From Taibaiella helva (GTDB taxonomy: Bacteria; Bacteroidota; Bacteroidia; Chitinophagales; Chitinophagaceae): a DNA stretch of 64,000 bases. Location of the stretch: positions 1 to 64,000 of the forward strand of contig NZ_QUZZ01000013.1 in NCBI RefSeq assembly GCF_003545695.1, read 5' to 3'. The first letter of the stretch is position 1, and each line of letters starts with the position of its first letter. Shown one piece after another: positions 2,668 to 55,531 of this stretch. The translations under genes and the position numbers were made by a program. The notes beneath the pieces are model-generated. The model ran no database searches. It saw nothing but the letters and a program-made list of their open reading frames with translations, and was not told where the DNA came from.

Positions 2668-2833
2668 TATTTTTTCAAAATTTTCAATGTTTGACTTTGC
2701 CTATTGTTTTTATTGAAGCCTGCGACGAGGTGTAATCCCGGCAGCGATCTCCAAAATCGCCGCCAAATCGTTATCTTCGCAGCCCGGAAGCGCTGTCCTG
2801 CTGTCCCTTTCCGGAACTAACTCAGTATCGTCT

Positions 2834-2868
2834 TCTAACATCTAATATCTGACATCTAATATCTAATC
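2834..2868. repeat. ATCTAA-type dispersed repeat module in the aspS leader
   Basis: A run of degenerate units TCTAACATCTAATATCT and relatives, ending 6 bases before the aspS ATG. The same word pattern recurs at 12793-12822 and 23699-23741. Confidence 0.65.
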
Positions 2869-2874
2869 CCAGGA

Positions 2875-4695
2875 ATGTATCGTAGCCACAATTGCGGCGA
2901 GCTCCGCAGCGAACATATTCAATCGACCGTAACCCTTGCCGGTTGGGTGCAGACCGTGCGCAAATTCGGCAGCATCACCTTTGTCGATCTCCGCGACCGT
3001 TATGGCATTACCCAGCTGTACTTTGACGAAGGCATGACACCACGCCTGGACGAGCAACCCCTGGGCCGCGAATTCGTAGTGCAGGCTACAGGAAAAGTGA
3101 TCGAGCGTACCAACAAGAATAACAAGATCCCTACAGGCGATATCGAGATCGAAGTAACAGACTATACTATATTGAATAAGTCTTCAGTGCCTCCTTTTAC
3201 GATAGAAGAAGAGACCGATGGCGGCGAGGAGCTGAGGATGAAGTACCGTTATCTCGATCTCAGGCGCCCTGCGCTGCAGCGTAATATGGAGCTGCGTTAC
3301 CGGGTCAACCGTTCGGCTCGTAATTATATGGATACCCAGGGATTCTACGATATTGAAACGCCTTTCCTGATCCGCTCTACGCCCGAGGGGGCGCGCGACT
3401 TCATCGTGCCTTCCCGTATGAACGAAGGACAATTCTACGCCTTGCCGCAAAGCCCGCAAACCTTTAAGCAATTGCTGATGGTGAGCGGCTACGACCGTTA
3501 CTACCAGATCGTAAAATGCTTCAGGGACGAGGATCTGAGAGCTGACCGTCAACCCGAGTTCACGCAGATCGACTGCGAAATGTCTTTCGTAGAACAGGAG
3601 GATGTGCTGCAGATGTTTGAAGGCCTTACCCGGCACGTCTTTCGCGATGTAAAAGGTATTGAGTTCAGCGAACCTTTCCCGCGTATGACCTGGGCTGAAG
3701 CCATGAAGCTTTATGGTAATGATAAGCCTGACCTGCGTTTCGGCATGCAGCTGGCTGAGCTGAAAGCACCGGCCGGCCTGCTGAACGAGCACGATGAAGC
3801 GATCGACCTTGTCGGCGGCGCTGATTTTAAAGTCATGGATGAAGCAGAGTACGTGGTAGCTATTGCTGCAAAAGGCTGCAGCGAATATACCCGTAAGCAG
3901 CTCGATGAGCTGACCGAATGGGTGAAGCGTCCGCAGATCGGCATGACCGGCCTGATGTATGTGAAATACAATGCCGACGGCAGCCTGAAAAGCTCAGTAG
4001 ACAAATTCTACAACGAAGAGCGCCTGGTACAGTGGGCGCAGCATGTCGATGCTCGTCCCGGCGACCTCGTCCTGGTGCTGGCCGGACCGGCTTCGCGTAC
4101 GCGCAAGGCGATGAGCGAGCTGCGGCTCGAAATGGGTAACCGTCTTGGCCTGCGCAACCGCGATGAGTACAAGCCGCTGTGGGTGCTGGATTTCCCGCTG
4201 CTGGAATTTGCGGAGAATAATGAAGATGGCGGCGGCGCCGGGCGTTGGGTGGCACGGCACCATCCTTTTACCTCACCCAAGCCCGACCAGATCGCCTGGA
4301 TGCAGGACAAGTCCCGCTATCCCTATATACAGGCCAATGCCTATGACCTGGTGCTGAACGGCACTGAGGTTGGCGGTGGCTCTATCCGTATCCACCAGCG
4401 CGACCTGCAGCTGAAGATGTTTGAGGTGCTGGGTATTGATGCGCATGAAGCCCAGGAGAAATTCGGCTTCCTGCTGGGCGCTTTCGAATACGGTGCGCCG
4501 CCGCACGGTGGACTGGCGCTGGGCTTCGACCGGCTCTGCGCCTTGCTGGGTGGTGATGAGACCATCCGCGACTACATTGCTTTCCCCAAGAACAATGCAG
4601 GCCGCGATGTAATGCTCGATGCACCTTCGGCAGTGAACCCCGTTCAGCTGGATGAGCTGAAGCTACAGATTGTCCCCGCTCCCAAAACGGTGTAA
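2875..4695 (+). CDS. aspS: aspartate--tRNA ligase
   Basis: Charges tRNA-Asp with aspartate in the cytoplasm. The N-terminal [10 protein letters not shown] and [20 protein letters not shown] belong to the OB-fold anticodon-binding domain (about 1-110). The class II motifs follow: motif 2 around [18 protein letters not shown] and motif 3 [15 protein letters not shown] near the C-terminus, with the bacterial GAD insertion in between. At 606 residues it has the usual bacterial length. The ATG is only 6 bases after a repeat module, so the repeat forms its leader; AGGA just before the ATG is a weak ribosome binding site. A strong terminator follows at 4715. Confidence 0.97.
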
Positions 4696-11473: not shown

Positions 11474-12595
11474 ATGCGCATTGCTGTTAATACCAGATTA
11501 TTTCTTAAAGGCAAGTTGGAAGGTATCGGCTGGTTCGCTCACGAAACCCTGACCAGGCTGGTGCGGCAGCATCCCGAGCACGAGTTTATCTTCTTCTTCG
11601 ACCGTCCCTATCATAAAGATTTTGTTTTTGCTCCCAATGTAACGCCTGTGGTGCTGAAGCCACAGGCGCGACATCCGGCGCTGTATGTTCTCTGGACCGA
11701 ATGGGCCGTTCCCTATGCCTTACGCAAGTACAGGGCCGATATCTATTTTTCCCCCGACGGCCTGGGCACGCTGCGCTCCAAGGTACCTACCTGCATTACC
11801 ATCCACGACCTGGCCTACCGGCATTACCCGCAGTTTATGGACAAGCTGCACAAATGGCACTATGCCCATTACCTGCCGCGCTTTGCCCAAAAGGCCCGGC
11901 GCATCGTTGCTGTATCGGAATATACCCGCCAGGATATCGTAAAGCAATACGGCATACCCGAAGACAAGATCGATGTGGTCTACAATGGTGCGCATGAAGC
12001 TTATAAGCCCCTCAGCTACGATGAAAAAGAGCAGGTAAAAGCGCAATACACCGAAGGGGAGGAGTTCTTCCTGTTCACCGGCGCCCTGCATCCCCGCAAG
12101 AATGTGGTGAACCTGCTCAAAGCCTTTGTACAGTTCAAGCGCCGGCAGCGCAGTCCTATTAAGCTGGTGATCGTAGGCCGGATGGCCTGGCAGTATGATG
12201 AGATTGCAAAGGCGCGTGAGCTGATGCCTTATAAGGAAGATGTGATCTGGACCGGTTATCTGAATGTCGAAGACCTGGCGCGGGTTACGGCTTCGGCTTA
12301 TGCCCTGGTCTATCCCTCTTTATTTGAAGGTTTTGGTATTCCCATACTGGAAGCGATGACCTGCGATGTGCCGGTGATTGTCTCCAATACTTCTTCCATG
12401 CCAGAAGTCGGCGGCGATGCGGCCCTGCTGGTCGATCCGGCCTCGCCCGAAGATATTGCAGCCAAAATGATGCAGATCTATAAGGATGAAACACTGCGGC
12501 AGAAAATGATCGAGGCTGCCCGCATCCGGAAGCAGCAGTTCAGCTGGGAGCGCTCTGCGCAGCAGTTATGGGAAAGCCTGATGAAGTGTCTTTGA
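11474..12595 (+). CDS. glycosyltransferase family 4 protein
   Basis: GT-B fold retaining glycosyltransferase, expected to move a sugar from a nucleotide-sugar onto a surface polysaccharide or glycolipid at the inner membrane. The N-terminal Rossmann half begins MRIAVNTRLFLKGKLEGIGW. The donor-binding half contains FLFTGALHPRKN and the family signature SLFEGFGIPILEAM with its EX7E pair, followed by the Asn-Thr-Ser-Ser-Met-Pro-Glu-Val-Gly segment that closes the active site. Length 373 is typical. It is isolated from other polysaccharide genes, so its pathway is unknown. Confidence 0.92.
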   Translation: MRIAVNTRLFLKGKLEGIGWFAHETLTRLVRQHPEHEFIFFFDRPYHKDFVFAPNVTPVVLKPQARHPALYVLWTEWAVPYALRKYRADIYFSPDGLGTLRSKVPTCITIHDLAYRHYPQFMDKLHKWHYAHYLPRFAQKARRIVAVSEYTRQDIVKQYGIPEDKIDVVYNGAHEAYKPLSYDEKEQVKAQYTEGEEFFLFTGALHPRKNVVNLLKAFVQFKRRQRSPIKLVIVGRMAWQYDEIAKARELMPYKEDVIWTGYLNVEDLARVTASAYALVYPSLFEGFGIPILEAMTCDVPVIVSNTSSMPEVGGDAALLVDPASPEDIAAKMMQIYKDETLRQKMIEAARIRKQQFSWERSAQQLWESLMKCL

Positions 12596-12598
12596 CAA

Positions 12599-12784
12599 AT
12601 TCCAGGAACTAAATTCCAATGTCCAAATTTCAATAAAGCAGTTGATAGTTAGCAGTCAGCAACCAAAGCTTCAGATTCCAGGAACCAAATTCCAATAGGT
12701 TGAAGTAGTCAGCTGGCAATTTAATTCCAGATTCCGGGATCAATTTCCAATAAGGCAATTGACAGTTAGCAGTCAGCAACCAAA
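12599..12784. repeat. composite intergenic repeat
   Basis: Two imperfect tandem copies of a mixed block: TTCCAGGAAC(T/C)AAATTCCAAT words followed by a GTTGA(T/C)AGTTAGCAGTCAGC block. A 21-base identity (12647-12667 and 12764-12784) marks the second block, 117 bases apart. Related words recur at 23607-23657. Confidence 0.7.
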
Positions 12785-12792
12785 ACTTCAGA

Positions 12793-12822
12793 TGCTAACA
12801 TCTAACATCTAATCTCTAATCT
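12793..12822. repeat. ATCTAA-type dispersed repeat overlapping the scpA stop
   Basis: GCTAACATCTAACATCTAAT-like words running into the 3' end of scpA: the minus-strand stop TAG (12818-12816) is read from a CTAATC unit of the repeat. Confidence 0.65.
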
Positions 12823-13685
12823 TCAGAAAAATCAAGCTCACCGGGATTATTGGGCTGCTCATCGGGTCCGTCCTGGTCTTTGGGCTGCAGGTCTATTTCG
12901 ATATCTTCAGGTCGTGCATCGTTCCATTCGATAATGAAATTGTTGCGCCCGGTACCGATAAGCATCATCAGGTATTTTTGCTGCACCAGTTCCAGCATGG
13001 CCAGGAAAGTGAAGATAGCATGTATGCGGTTTTCACATATCGAGAAGATCACCTCGAAAGAAGCCTTCTTTTTCTGCTTCATTTCTTCGATCAGGTAGAT
13101 GCGTTGCCCTTCCTGTGAATAATTGTACTTGACCACCACGTGCTGTGGCTTTTCGTTGCGGTCCTTGAAGCGCTTCATCACCTTCTCAAAGGTGCTCATT
13201 AGCTTGTACAAGGTCACGGTCTGCACCTCGGTGCCTTCGGCATAGGTCTGGCCCAGCTCCTCCAGCTCCTTGCGGATATTGCCCCGCTTGGTTTGCAGCA
13301 GGCGGTCAGCTTCCATCATGGCCATTGTGGCGGCTGCTTCTTTAAAGCGTTTGTATTCGAGGATCTTGTCGACCAGCTCGTGGCGGGGGTCGATCTCGTT
13401 GCCCTGGGCATCCAGCTCGCGGCGGGGCAGCAGCATTTTGGCCTTGATGCGCATCAGGGTGGAGATAAACAGGATGAATTCGCTGGCCAGCTCAATATTC
13501 AGCGATTCCATTTGATGGATATAATCCAGGAAATCGCGGGTAAGCGTATGGATCGGGATATTGTAAATATCGAGCTCATCCCGCTCAATGAAGAACAGGA
13601 GCAGGTCGAAAGGGCCTTCAAACTGGGGTAGCTTGATCTGGTAACCGGTAGACGCCATAAGAAATTGCTGCGGTATCCCTTCCAT
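12816..13685 (-). CDS. scpA: segregation and condensation protein A (kleisin)
   Basis: Kleisin subunit of the bacterial SMC-ScpAB condensin that organises and segregates the chromosome. The N-terminal YQIKLPQFEGPFDLLLFFIE followed by RDELDIYNIPIHTLTRDFLD is the classic ScpA opening that binds the SMC neck; the middle binds ScpB; the C-terminal winged-helix region includes FLAMLELVQQKYL. The tail is acidic. A second ATG nine codons in (13658, MASTGYQIKLP) is equally plausible as start. No scpB or smc gene is adjacent. The last codon and stop lie in a dispersed repeat. Confidence 0.93.
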   Translation of the reverse strand: MEGIPQQFLMASTGYQIKLPQFEGPFDLLLFFIERDELDIYNIPIHTLTRDFLDYIHQMESLNIELASEFILFISTLMRIKAKMLLPRRELDAQGNEIDPRHELVDKILEYKRFKEAAATMAMMEADRLLQTKRGNIRKELEELGQTYAEGTEVQTVTLYKLMSTFEKVMKRFKDRNEKPQHVVVKYNYSQEGQRIYLIEEMKQKKKASFEVIFSICENRIHAIFTFLAMLELVQQKYLMMLIGTGRNNFIIEWNDARPEDIEIDLQPKDQDGPDEQPNNPGELDFSED

Positions 13686-23585: not shown

Positions 23586-23606
23586 TTCGAAAGTCCGGAT
23601 GTAAGC

Positions 23607-23657
23607 TCCAATGTCCAAATTCCAATGTCCAAAGACAAAGCGGTTGACAGTTAGCAG
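23607..23657. repeat. TCCAATGTCCAAATTCC / GTTGACAGTTAGCAG repeat block
   Basis: Contains TCCAATGTCCAAATTCCAAT words (from 23607) and GTTGACAGTTAGCAG (23643-23657), the same two modules in the same order as in 12599-12784. Confidence 0.65.
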
Positions 23658-23698
23658 CTTCTGATACTCAATAGTCAACACTTATAACTGCTTGCACT

Positions 23699-23741
23699 AC
23701 TCTAATCTAAAATCTAATATCTAGCATCTAAGATCTTAGAT
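23699..23741. repeat. ATCTAA-type repeat overlapping the ketosynthase stop
   Basis: Units such as TCTAATCTAAAATCTAATAT and ATCTAAGATCTTAG. Read on the minus strand it encodes the final Asn-Leu-Arg-Ser and the TAG stop of the gene at 23728. Confidence 0.65.
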
Positions 23742-24939
23742 TAACATCTCCCAGAACCAAAGACACATTGTTGCCGCCGAAGCCGAAAGAATTGGCGAGG
23801 GCATAGCGGACGGGGGTATTGCGCAGCAGTTTTTTTTGCGGCACGATGCCGATCTCTTCCATTGGCGTTTCAAAACGCAGGTTAGGAGGAATGAAGGAAC
23901 CGCGTATCGCCAGGCAGCAAATGATCGCACCTACGGCGCCGCTGGCGGCAAGGGTATGTCCCGTGAAGGCTTTGGTCGAGCTGAAATGGGGATAGTCCTG
24001 GTTACCGAACAACCGTTCGATAGCGGTGCCTTCCGACAGGTCATTGCCCAGCGTCGCAGTGCCATGGGCATTGATATAGTCGATTGCTTCCTTATCCAGG
24101 CCGGCTACGGATAGGGCTTCCTGCATGGTCAGCAGGGCGCCGGCGCCGTCGGGGGAAGGGGCGGTGGGATGATGGGCTTCATTGGTATTGCCATAGCCGG
24201 CCAGCACGGCTATCGCCGCGGCGTCCCTTTCTTTTGCTGAGGTCTCCGATTCCAGGATGAGGTAAGCAGCACCTTCGCCCAGGTTCAGCCCGTTGCGGTG
24301 CTGGTCGAAAGGCCGGGTAGGCTTTTTGTCCACGTTTTTAAGCGCGTTGAAACCGTTCAGCGTAAAGCGGGTGAGGGCGTCGGCGCCGCCGCAGATCGCT
24401 ATATCCGCTTCCCCGCTTTCGATCATGCGGGCGCCCAGCTGCAGGGCATTGGCCGATGAAGAGCAGGCTGTGCTGATAGTCGTCTGGAAGCCCCTGAGAT
24501 CGAAGTAGTCGGCCATACGCTGGGTACAGTCGGCGCAATCGAGGGAATCGATATAGCTGAGAAAATCTCCTTCCGTTGCGGGCGAGATCATGTCGGAATA
24601 AAGGTTCTCCACATCGCTCATACCGCCTACAGTAGTGGCGTTGATAAAAGCAATTTTTTTGGGGGCTCGTTGTTCGGGAGGGAGTGTCTTCAGGGTCTCG
24701 CGAAGGGCATGAAGGCCCAGCAGGGTAGTGCGGCTGAACCCTGCTCCCGGCAGGTTCAGCGCTGCTGCCAGCTGTTCATTGGTTTGCTTTACCTCGCCTA
24801 CCACCATTTCGTTACGGTGACGGGTCTGGAGGATATTGGGATGGCCGAGCACTTCTTTTTCCTCCAGGATCGCCTGCAGGTTTTCAGCAACGGTATTGCC
24901 CAGAGCGGTGATCATGCCTATGCCGGTGATCTGGACCAT
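23728..24939 (-). CDS. beta-ketoacyl-[ACP] synthase (FabF-like)
   Basis: 403-residue condensing enzyme with a complete catalytic set: Cys159 in STACSSSAN, His292 in NAHGTAT, Lys323 and His328 in STKAFTGHTLAASG, and the glycine-rich end NSFGFGGNNVSLVLG. It would extend an acyl chain on the acyl carrier protein encoded 152 bases upstream. With the catalytically dead ketosynthase-like protein at 21420 it may form a heterodimer. This is not the housekeeping fabF context; flexirubin, aryl polyene or specialised lipid synthesis are possible. The stop codon lies in a repeat module. Confidence 0.9.
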   Translation of the reverse strand: MVQITGIGMITALGNTVAENLQAILEEKEVLGHPNILQTRHRNEMVVGEVKQTNEQLAAALNLPGAGFSRTTLLGLHALRETLKTLPPEQRAPKKIAFINATTVGGMSDVENLYSDMISPATEGDFLSYIDSLDCADCTQRMADYFDLRGFQTTISTACSSSANALQLGARMIESGEADIAICGGADALTRFTLNGFNALKNVDKKPTRPFDQHRNGLNLGEGAAYLILESETSAKERDAAAIAVLAGYGNTNEAHHPTAPSPDGAGALLTMQEALSVAGLDKEAIDYINAHGTATLGNDLSEGTAIERLFGNQDYPHFSSTKAFTGHTLAASGAVGAIICCLAIRGSFIPPNLRFETPMEEIGIVPQKKLLRNTPVRYALANSFGFGGNNVSLVLGDVNLRS

Positions 24940-47970: not shown

Positions 47971-48017
47971 CCTGAATACATAGAGACGTAGCATTGCTAC
48001 GTCTCTATGTATTCAGG
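47971..48017. repeat. 47-bp perfect palindrome (MITE/REP-like)
   Basis: 23-base arms, perfectly complementary, around one T; core GACGTAGCATTGCTACGTC. Lies in the 255-base gap between ilvE and the converging transporter gene. Similar palindromes occur in other Bacteroidota and in cyanobacteria. Confidence 0.8.
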
Positions 48018-49694: not shown

Positions 49695-49720
49695 GCGCAG
49701 CGCTTTGAGGGTGTTTAAAG

Positions 49721-49749
49721 CTAAAGCCTCCTGTAACAGGAGGCTTTAG
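49721..49749 (-). terminator. terminator between transporter genes
   Basis: Perfect 13-bp stem CTAAAGCCTCCTG / complement with loop TAA. It ends the middle transporter transcript, 18 bases past its stop. Confidence 0.8.
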
Positions 49750-49766
49750 CGGTAAAAGAGAATTGT

Positions 49767-53877: not shown

Positions 53878-55491
53878 ATGAGATGGTTATACCTTTTACT
53901 GGCTGTTTGGTTACCCTTTTGCGTTGCAGCGCAGTCCAGCAATAGCGCGCATTGCACCAACACACCGGCAAGGGCCTGGTGGAAGGCAAACAGCTACGAT
54001 ATCCTTTTACAGGTCGATAGCGTTACGGGATACCTGGATGGCCGGGTACTGATCCGTGCGCAGGTTACAGATCAGCCGCAGGATTCCCTGCAGATCGACC
54101 TGGTACAGCCACTCCGGATCAAAGGGGTAACGTATGGCGAGAAGCCCGCCGCGAAGCTGCGGCAGCAGGAGAATGTCTGGTACATCTATGACGATTTCCG
54201 TAAGCTGAAGAAGGGAGACATATTCGAGCTAGAGATCAGCTACGGAGGTGATCCGATAAAGGCGAAGCAGGCGCCCTGGGATGGTGGGCTGGTGTTGTCG
54301 AAGGACCGGCAGGGCAGGCCCTGGATCGGCATGGCCTGTCAGGGGCAAGGCGCCAGCTTGTGGCTACCCTGCAAAGACTTCCAGGGCGAAGAACCTGATA
54401 GTGTCTCCTTGTCGCTTATTGCCCCCGGAGATATGCAGGCTATTGGCAATGGCAGGCTGATGCAAAAGCAGGACGAAGGTAAGCTGGGTACAGTGTGGAC
54501 CTGGCAGGTACGCAACCCGATCAATCTGTATGATATTTCTTTTTATATCGGCCATTACGCGCATTGGTCCGATACGCTTCATGGCGCCAAAGGACCACTG
54601 TCCCTGGACTATTATGTACTGCGTGCCAACCTGGACAAGGCAAAGAAACATTTCGAGGTAGTGAAGCCGATGCTGCGCTGCTTTGAAGATAAGCTGGGTC
54701 CTTATCCTTTCTATGAAGACGGCTATAAGCTGGTAGAAGCACCTTACCTGGGCATGGAGCACCAAAGCGCCGTGGCTTACGGCAATGAATATAAAATGGG
54801 TTATCGAGGCAAAGACCGCAGCCGTACTGGCGCCGGGCTGGACTTCGATTTTATCATCGTGCATGAAAGCGGTCATGAATGGTTCGGCAACAGCATCACG
54901 GCTTACGATAAGGCCGATACCTGGATACACGAAGGATTCACGACCTATACCGAAACGATCTTTGAGGAATGTCTGAAAGGTAAGGAGCGTGCATTCCTGT
55001 ACCAGCGGGGTAAAAAAGACATTGTGCGGAACGATGCCCCGCCCCAGGGACAATTCGGTTTATGCGACGAAGGCAGCGATGATCATTACGATAAAGCAGC
55101 GTTGATGATCCACATGATCCGCATGATCATGAACGATGACAGCCGATTTTTCGGTATGCTGCAAGAGATGAACCGGAAATATTACCACCAGATCGTAGAG
55201 GGTAAAACGATCGAGCAGTTCATGATCGGCTATTCAGGGAAGGACCTCGCCGGGGTATTTGATCAGTACCTGCGGCGTGCAATGCTGCCTGTACTGGCTT
55301 TTAAGCTGGAGAAAGGTGTGCTGTATTACCAATGGAAGAATTGTGTGCCGGGATTCAATATGCCCGTATCCTTTACATTCGACGGCAAGGTACAATGGCT
55401 GTATCCTACGGAGCAGCAGCAGCAGATGCCGGTTACTGCCAAAGATATTGTTGCCGGCGAAGATTTCCTGGTGGACTATGAATGGGACTAA
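53878..55491 (+). CDS. exported M1-family metallopeptidase
   Basis: 537-residue zinc aminopeptidase with signal peptide MRWLYLLLAVWLPFCVAAQ. GMEHQSAVAYGNEY is the substrate-anchoring GxMEN-like motif; zinc ligands are His329, His333 (HESGHEWFG) and Glu352 in WIHEGFTTYTE, with the standard 18-residue gap. Shorter than full M1 enzymes, lacking the large C-terminal domain, as in many Bacteroidota. An in-frame start 7 codons upstream overlaps pth and is not preferred. Its stop codon lies in the left arm of a 21-bp inverted repeat. Confidence 0.92.
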   Translation: MRWLYLLLAVWLPFCVAAQSSNSAHCTNTPARAWWKANSYDILLQVDSVTGYLDGRVLIRAQVTDQPQDSLQIDLVQPLRIKGVTYGEKPAAKLRQQENVWYIYDDFRKLKKGDIFELEISYGGDPIKAKQAPWDGGLVLSKDRQGRPWIGMACQGQGASLWLPCKDFQGEEPDSVSLSLIAPGDMQAIGNGRLMQKQDEGKLGTVWTWQVRNPINLYDISFYIGHYAHWSDTLHGAKGPLSLDYYVLRANLDKAKKHFEVVKPMLRCFEDKLGPYPFYEDGYKLVEAPYLGMEHQSAVAYGNEYKMGYRGKDRSRTGAGLDFDFIIVHESGHEWFGNSITAYDKADTWIHEGFTTYTETIFEECLKGKERAFLYQRGKKDIVRNDAPPQGQFGLCDEGSDDHYDKAALMIHMIRMIMNDDSRFFGMLQEMNRKYYHQIVEGKTIEQFMIGYSGKDLAGVFDQYLRRAMLPVLAFKLEKGVLYYQWKNCVPGFNMPVSFTFDGKVQWLYPTEQQQQMPVTAKDIVAGEDFLVDYEWD

Positions 55492-55531
55492 CTCTTATAG
55501 GATTTTAAACCCTATAAGAGTTAGTCCCATT
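55481..55531. terminator. inverted repeat spanning the ends of two convergent genes
   Basis: 21-base arms (55481-55501 and 55511-55531) are perfect complements around a 9-base AT-rich loop. The left arm contains the M1 stop (55489-55491); the right arm reaches into the stop codon of the anti-sigma gene (55530-55532). Probable bidirectional terminator. Confidence 0.8.

Follow-up and report, generated by a model that had tools for sequence, protein, structure and literature searches.

A degenerate heptanucleotide-repeat array between a glycosyltransferase gene and scpA of Taibaiella helva, and related arrays in other intergenic spacers

Results

One array of 7-base units fills the glycosyltransferase/scpA gap

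The window analysed here is the whole 64,000-nt stretch at the start of contig NZ_QUZZ01000013.1 (C3) of the T. helva genome (G000; 4.82 Mb, 34 contigs). Within it, a gene for a GT4-type glycosyltransferase (11474–12595, plus strand) and scpA, encoding segregation and condensation protein A (12816–13685, minus strand), are separated by a gap of 220 nt by gene calls, and this gap is filled by a repeat block at 12596–12822 that was recognized by sequence reading and a period test. The block, whose C-rich strand is the plus strand, starts at the glycosyltransferase stop codon TGA (12593–12595) and ends in the scpA stop codon TAG (12816–12818, minus strand), which lies in its ATCTAA-type end (12794–12822).

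The initial annotation described three module types in fixed order, namely TTCCAAT/TCCAAATT words, GTTGACAGTTAGCAG-type words and ATCTAA words. The words are indeed present on one strand and their order recurs at 23604–23742, but they represent versions of a single 7-base unit that mostly keep to one register: when the first part of the block is split into sevens (AATTCCA, GGAACTA, AATTCCA, ATGTCCA, AATTTCA, ATAAAGC, AGTTGAT, AGTTAGC, AGTCAGC, AACCAAA), the supposed modules share one register, and the variants TTCCAAA, TTCTAAA and ATCTAAA differ by single steps. With lags 7, 14, 21 and 28 pooled and 300 first-order shuffles for each stretch, the z score of period 7 was 5.8 for the block as a whole (4.7 for its first half) and 6.8 for the second block, while the other periods from 4 to 12 reached z of at most 0.3 in the block and 0.5 in any tested stretch. 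The middle word region (12630–12672) is by itself weakly 7-periodic (z = 1.9). The block is a single degenerate tandem array of 7-base units, not three unrelated modules.

The array also carries an internal duplication. The 21-base identity AGTTAGCAGTCAGCAACCAAA, which contains the GTTAGCAG-type middle word and had been noted before as duplicated 117 bp apart, was found at 12647–12667 and 12764–12784 (both plus strand). It belongs to a 73-nt pair detected by a repeat search (12624–12696 and 12741–12813, plus strand) that is 79% identical at the same offset of 117, which is no multiple of 7; a repeat scan of the block gave 2.9 copies of about 55 nt with 66% matches. Because of this duplication the first block reads as more than a single pass through the order (TCCAA, middle, TCCAA, TCCAA, middle, ATCTAA).

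In agreement with the initial annotation, the block has no coding capacity and no terminal repeats, with no inverted pair of at least 10 nt in 12560–12860, and an insertion sequence or miniature transposon was rejected on this ground. The conserved ends and target duplications suggested for an element are not discernible, as the array spans gene end to gene end. No Rfam family matched at gathering score across the window, and a plasmid collection searched with the block gave no match. Single-strand folding of the block was somewhat better than that of shuffles (z = -2.41 as DNA, -2.28 as plus-strand RNA and -3.45 as minus-strand RNA).

Two further arrays were found in the window. The second, on the plus strand, consists of TCCAATG/TCCAAAT words (23604–23633), the middle word GTTGACAGTTAGCAG (23642–23657), CTTATAACTGCTTGCA, a variant of the CTTACAATCGCTTACA core (23681–23696), and an ATCTAA-type end (23698–23742) that contains the stop codon TAG (23728–23730, minus strand) of a beta-ketoacyl synthase gene, here called fabF (23728–24939, minus strand). 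For scpA and for the ketoacyl synthase gene, the TAG stop is supplied by a TTAGA unit of the respective array. The second block holds three inverted pairs of at least 10 nt, all internal to the ATCTAA words or distant and none at the array ends, including an 18-nt, 83% pair within the ATCTAA words at 23703–23743. The third array (2833–2870, plus strand) has ATCTAA words only and lies about 9 nt upstream of the start of aspS, encoding aspartate-tRNA ligase (2875–4695, plus strand).

Words follow one order across the T. helva genome

Word searches were extended to the whole T. helva genome. The ATCTAA word pair ATCTAAYATCTAA gave 37 matches at 23 places and none for the reversed pattern, TCCAANNTCCAA gave 23 matches versus 12 in the control, and AGTTRRCAGTYRRCA with at most one mismatch gave 10 versus 4, with five of the ten inside the window; by these last counts the middle word is rare compared with the others. 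For the analysis of order, five parts were labelled on the C-rich strand: E (AAGTATC/AGGTACC), D (TTCCAAAT), the middle part (CTGCCAACTGC/GTTGACAGTTAGCAG or CAATACCCAATACC), T (a core near CTTACAATCGCTTACA) and A (ATCTAACATCTAAT). The places in the T. helva genome suggest a linear order of E, D, middle, T and A, in which the middle part was placed by eye. At one locus (L010) all five parts are packed into about 130 nt that run up to a start codon.

The TTCCAA words preceded the ATCTAA words (D before A) at all 15 scorable places, which are those of 36 that had at least two of each word (the other 21 were dropped), with the strand set by the majority of both words together; the opposite strand was free of either word at nine of the 15. 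The modules therefore do not occur in random order and orientation in this genome, which is the pattern that the initial annotation had named as contrary to its composite. Pairwise counts over the 36 places, taken only where there was enough of both words, gave E before A in 14/14, T before A in 16/17, E before T in 10/12, D before T in 11/14 and E before D in 7/9. Among the 15 array spacers of the survey described below, D, E and T each preceded A in 6/6 and D preceded T in 3/4. Where the exact forms of the two words lay within 300 nt of each other, strand and order agreed at five of six places, the sixth (C21:467 kb) having them on opposite strands.

One order on a single strand at many loci is what a non-autonomous mobile element with an invariant composition, copied to many spacers and since decayed, would leave behind, and a common non-tandem core would fit such an element as well: the T-core pattern TTACANNNNYTTACA had 15 matches versus 4 in the control in T. 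helva, seven of the 15 in known arrays (10 versus 9 in G001, 14 versus 4 in G002 and 13 versus 9 in G003, all of the same genus). However, the block lacks inverted ends and the arrays are limited by gene ends, and we consider this explanation distinctly unlikely, also in view of the species comparison below. An order-4 word model did not serve to delimit elements and was used for display; it returned 65 matches versus 115 in the reversed control at threshold 9, 23 versus 16 at threshold 12 and 21 versus 2 at threshold 15.

A word-free survey places the arrays at gene ends

Arrays were also located irrespective of their words, as windows of 35 nt in which 23 or more positions matched at a given lag, after removal of low-complexity sequence, in 864 kb of T. 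helva (C21:1–400000, C28:100001–300000, C11:250001–450000 and the window). Word matches were already known in the stretches of C21, C28 and C11, as in those sampled from G001, G002 and G366 (the G381 stretch held none known), so the densities are too high for whole genomes. At lag 7, 21 windows were found in spacers, 0.0 in five shuffles and none in coding sequence; a first pass without the low-complexity filter gave 16, 0.2 and 0, respectively. Lag 14 gave 15 windows in spacers and the remaining lags from 4 to 16 gave 0 to 2, and coding sequence exceeded one window only at lags divisible by 3. The shortness of the words and the rarity of the middle word in the genome could speak for a chance clustering of A+T-rich words, but the shuffle, coding-sequence and reversed-pattern controls all oppose it and make it extremely improbable.

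Arrays were present in 15 of 503 spacers of 45–600 nt, counted with genes called by script (coding fraction 0.83–0.88), such that some of these spacers contain missed genes; at least two of the 15 (C21:281 kb and C11:349 kb) resemble plain A/T-rich runs. The mean autocorrelation of all spacers was uninformative, being dominated by the period-3 signal of missed genes. An array end lay at most 10 nt from a gene in 12 of the 15 (expected 7.7, p = 0.0065), and seven arrays overlap a gene call by 4–12 nt. An avoidance of divergent gaps was not significant (1/109 versus 14/394, p = 0.21).

The arrays are strand-biased, with a mean absolute GC skew of 0.54 in 25 array windows versus 0.19 in 1464 other spacer windows. 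This bias would suit a selected regulatory or RNA-level signal, such as a leader, a 3' end, a Rho-type termination site or a protein-binding array, and so would the lack of a terminator-like hairpin in the gap of the block (simple scan). However, the orientation of the arrays to transcription is mixed: of ten arrays between genes of the same direction, the RNA would be C-rich in six, G-rich in three and equal in one. A transcription-linked polarity was therefore rejected, and a selected signal is an unlikely explanation overall, with further evidence on both sides coming from the comparisons that follow.

Array places are shared with a sister species, and the words differ

Among named organisms, Taibaiella koreensis gave the best scpA match (90%). 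It keeps the glycosyltransferase neighbour (91%), and its gap too is occupied by an array, made of GTATTAAG, TTGGAATT and TTGCCAACTGC words; the same-genus genome G002 is identical to it over 700 bases around the scpA-side gap. ScpA ends in LDFSED in the window and in LGFSAE in T. koreensis, by which the array meets scpA at the same residue in both species. The scpA loci of G003 and G001 had no glycosyltransferase match, nor an array in the 700 nt inspected. Across 80 scpA loci (623 kb), eight lag-7 windows were found in five loci versus three in one shuffle set, and two of these signals are accounted for by the T. koreensis copy of the gap.

Spacers of at least 42 nt were compared with the sister species G002 where the neighbouring gene pair is conserved in the sampled stretches. 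Of 114 such common spacers, three had an array in T. helva and three in G002, and these were the same three (p = 4e-6); none had an array in one species and not in the other. At one of them (C28:210698), TTAGATA units in T. helva stand against TTGGGTA/TTGAGTA units in G002, with CCTGATACCTGATAC kept. Since the same three spacers carry other words in the sister species, the place of an array is inherited and its words turn over. With G001, 26 spacers were common and neither genome had an array in them. These results do not support the suggestion of a mobile non-autonomous element, as array gain or loss is not seen among the 114 spacers shared with G002 and the differing words exclude recent copying. 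The fabF gap points the other way, having arrays in T. helva and G002 and only 55 nt without an array in G001. For a selected signal, the replacement of the supposed signal words between sister species is likewise unfavourable, while an ATCTAA-/ATCTGA-type array about 10 nt or less from the aspS start is kept in all four genus genomes, with differing unit numbers, and favours it.

The word pair ATCTAAYATCTAA had 239 matches in G001, 33 in G002 and 24 in G003, and at most 8 each in the other 55 of 59 genomes. In G001 and in the G002 sample the order is not fixed: D stood before A in four cases and after it in three in the former, and in two and one, respectively, in the latter.

Two further observations concern G001. 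A repeat of about 90 nt ending in CTTCGCTGCGCTCAGGATGACA is present at 12 of 20 loci (L221–L240) in up to eight copies and leads straight into an ATCTAA array at five loci; similar sequences are widespread in bacteria. One contig (C1, L228) ends at 1,781,507 inside an ATCTAAC array, the last listed match ending at 1,781,504, and long arrays may break assemblies.

Seven-base arrays in other Bacteroidota

Three ATCTAAY units in a row were found in 8 of 395 genomes across the phylum, T. helva included, versus 2 for the reversed control, and three TTCCAAA units in 17 versus 10. The reversed-control matches, too, are 7-base arrays, only with different words, and this explains the modest excess for TTCCAAA; at least one TTCCAAA locus (L285) resembles coding sequence. 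Among 35 loci of other genera, five have both words twice, with D first in three and A first in two. An ATCTAAC-type array lies directly upstream of leuS both in T. helva (C6) and in G329, a genome of another family (loci L013 and L275); this recurrence would favour a selected signal, but it was noticed post hoc.

Arrays of G366, from another family of the class, use many words (GTTTCAG, GCTTTAA, TTTTAGA), and TTCCAAA, TTCTAAA and ATCTAAA grade into each other along one of them. As G366 and G381 were selected for word matches, period 7 in these genomes is no survey result. The G366 arrays tend to inverted arms, the score within a spacer being 14.9 versus 12.1 when permuted (p = 0.011), with the direct similarity of the spacer halves raised as well (p = 0.002); a separate arm test was positive in 2/20 array spacers versus 25/120 spacers without arrays. 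The inverted-arm test was borderline in G381 (p = 0.053). In T. helva, arm complementarity was below the permuted value (8.2 versus 11.0, p = 0.986); with this and the lack of inverted pairs in the block, a palindromic repeat family (REP and the like) or hairpin element was rejected. In one G366 region (C1:1000001–1400000, L329–L348), the gap ends bear complementary 7-base arrays, for example GTTTCAG and CCTGAAAC, and the word varies by gap.

Discussion

Relation to known heptamer repeats

With a tandem unit of 7 bases and an intergenic location at many loci, the block belongs to the known intergenic heptanucleotide tandem repeats, in an unusually structured form: its units are degenerate, with several words per array rather than near-identical copies of one unit, although pure ATCTAAC runs are present in some T. 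helva arrays (C8). The short tandemly repeated repetitive sequences of cyanobacteria also have heptanucleotide units in many intergenic copies, and they are set apart here by description, having other units.

They and the intergenic heptamers of Beggiatoaceae and Xanthomonas are the closest known counterparts of the T. helva arrays. The TAACTGA repeats of Beggiatoaceae occur at many intergenic loci, often just before start codons, and a few Bacteroidetes have mixed heptamers (MacGregor 2015, PMC4679880). They resemble the present arrays in their 7-base intergenic units, overlap with gene ends and unit stop codons, but have one fixed unit where several degenerate words follow a fixed order here (PMC4679880). 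The GGGAATC/GGGGAYT repeats of Xanthomonas and Nostoc (Rehm 2015, PMC4692102) lie mostly between the same genes in two Xanthomonas species, with much variation in length and sequence, as here; unlike here, they have a single G-rich unit with quadruplex potential. Heptamer-derived satellite families are similarly tandem and dispersed in one genome, the example in Chloroflexus being a single unit, unlike the multi-word arrays of T. helva (PMC6749651). Doublets of TAACTGA (either strand) and of GGGAATC were absent from five samples. An ordered multi-word heptamer array was not found in the literature, searched mostly without subscription journals, nor was anything on such arrays among the listed papers on Taibaiella repeats.

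Origin and turnover of the arrays

Taken together, the block is probably one of a set of old intergenic heptanucleotide-repeat spacers in which slippage or unequal exchange rewrites the units where they stand. Each spacer would consist of tandem 7-base units of degenerate sequence that for the most part share register and strand. It would lengthen, shorten and be rewritten by one or a few units per step through replication slippage, as we infer, or unequal exchange, and occasionally a larger segment would be duplicated in tandem, as in the 73-nt pair. For the heptanucleotide repeats of bacterial spacers, a polymerase slippage that is tuned to 7 bases has been proposed (PMC4679880, PMC4692102). 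The slippage-driven origin raised in the initial annotation fits the 7-base register, the 73-nt internal duplication and the decay of unit similarity with distance: in 14 T. helva array spacers, the in-register excess of similarity fell through 0.18, 0.16, 0.12, 0.10, 0.04, 0.04, 0.03, 0.02 and 0.01 to 0.00. The decay is not clean in G366, where the excess reaches a plateau near 0.06.

Local tandem duplication with point mutation would explain the register, the degenerate words and the turnover in place. That many loci have one order is left unexplained by slippage or local duplication alone; the fixed order may derive from an ancestral composite in the lineage, whose early spread seems a somewhat likelier source than directional drift. 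Two features would let arrays persist: their intergenic place, where steps of 7 bases are nearly harmless, and their ATCTAA end, which has stop codons on either strand and can extend into the last codon of a gene. The arrays are most likely tolerated spacers and untranslated ends, a putative assignment.

A broader system is unlikely. In it, place, polarity and the word order of the lineage would be inherited in 7-base-register elements of Bacteroidota spacers. The words would not change by random slippage; an active homogenising mechanism, for example templated synthesis or gene conversion from array to array, would rewrite them blockwise, and the leuS words in another family and the inverted arms elsewhere in the class would be forms of one system. 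As the arrays keep strand, register and order, and orthologous arrays of the sister species have other words, the tempo and direction of rewriting are measurable per locus, and slippage, gene conversion and selection differ in their predictions for it.

Further repeats in the window

Apart from the arrays, gene gaps of the window contain three long inverted repeats, near-perfect and centred on a single base, at 47971–48017, 49714–49756 and 55481–55531 (arms of 23, 21 and 25 nt, respectively); they are perhaps terminators. A 26-nt tandem repeat with TAACTAATCGGTTACA at 2614–2670 is perhaps an operator; a similar sequence precedes a divergent gene in G002 and G003.
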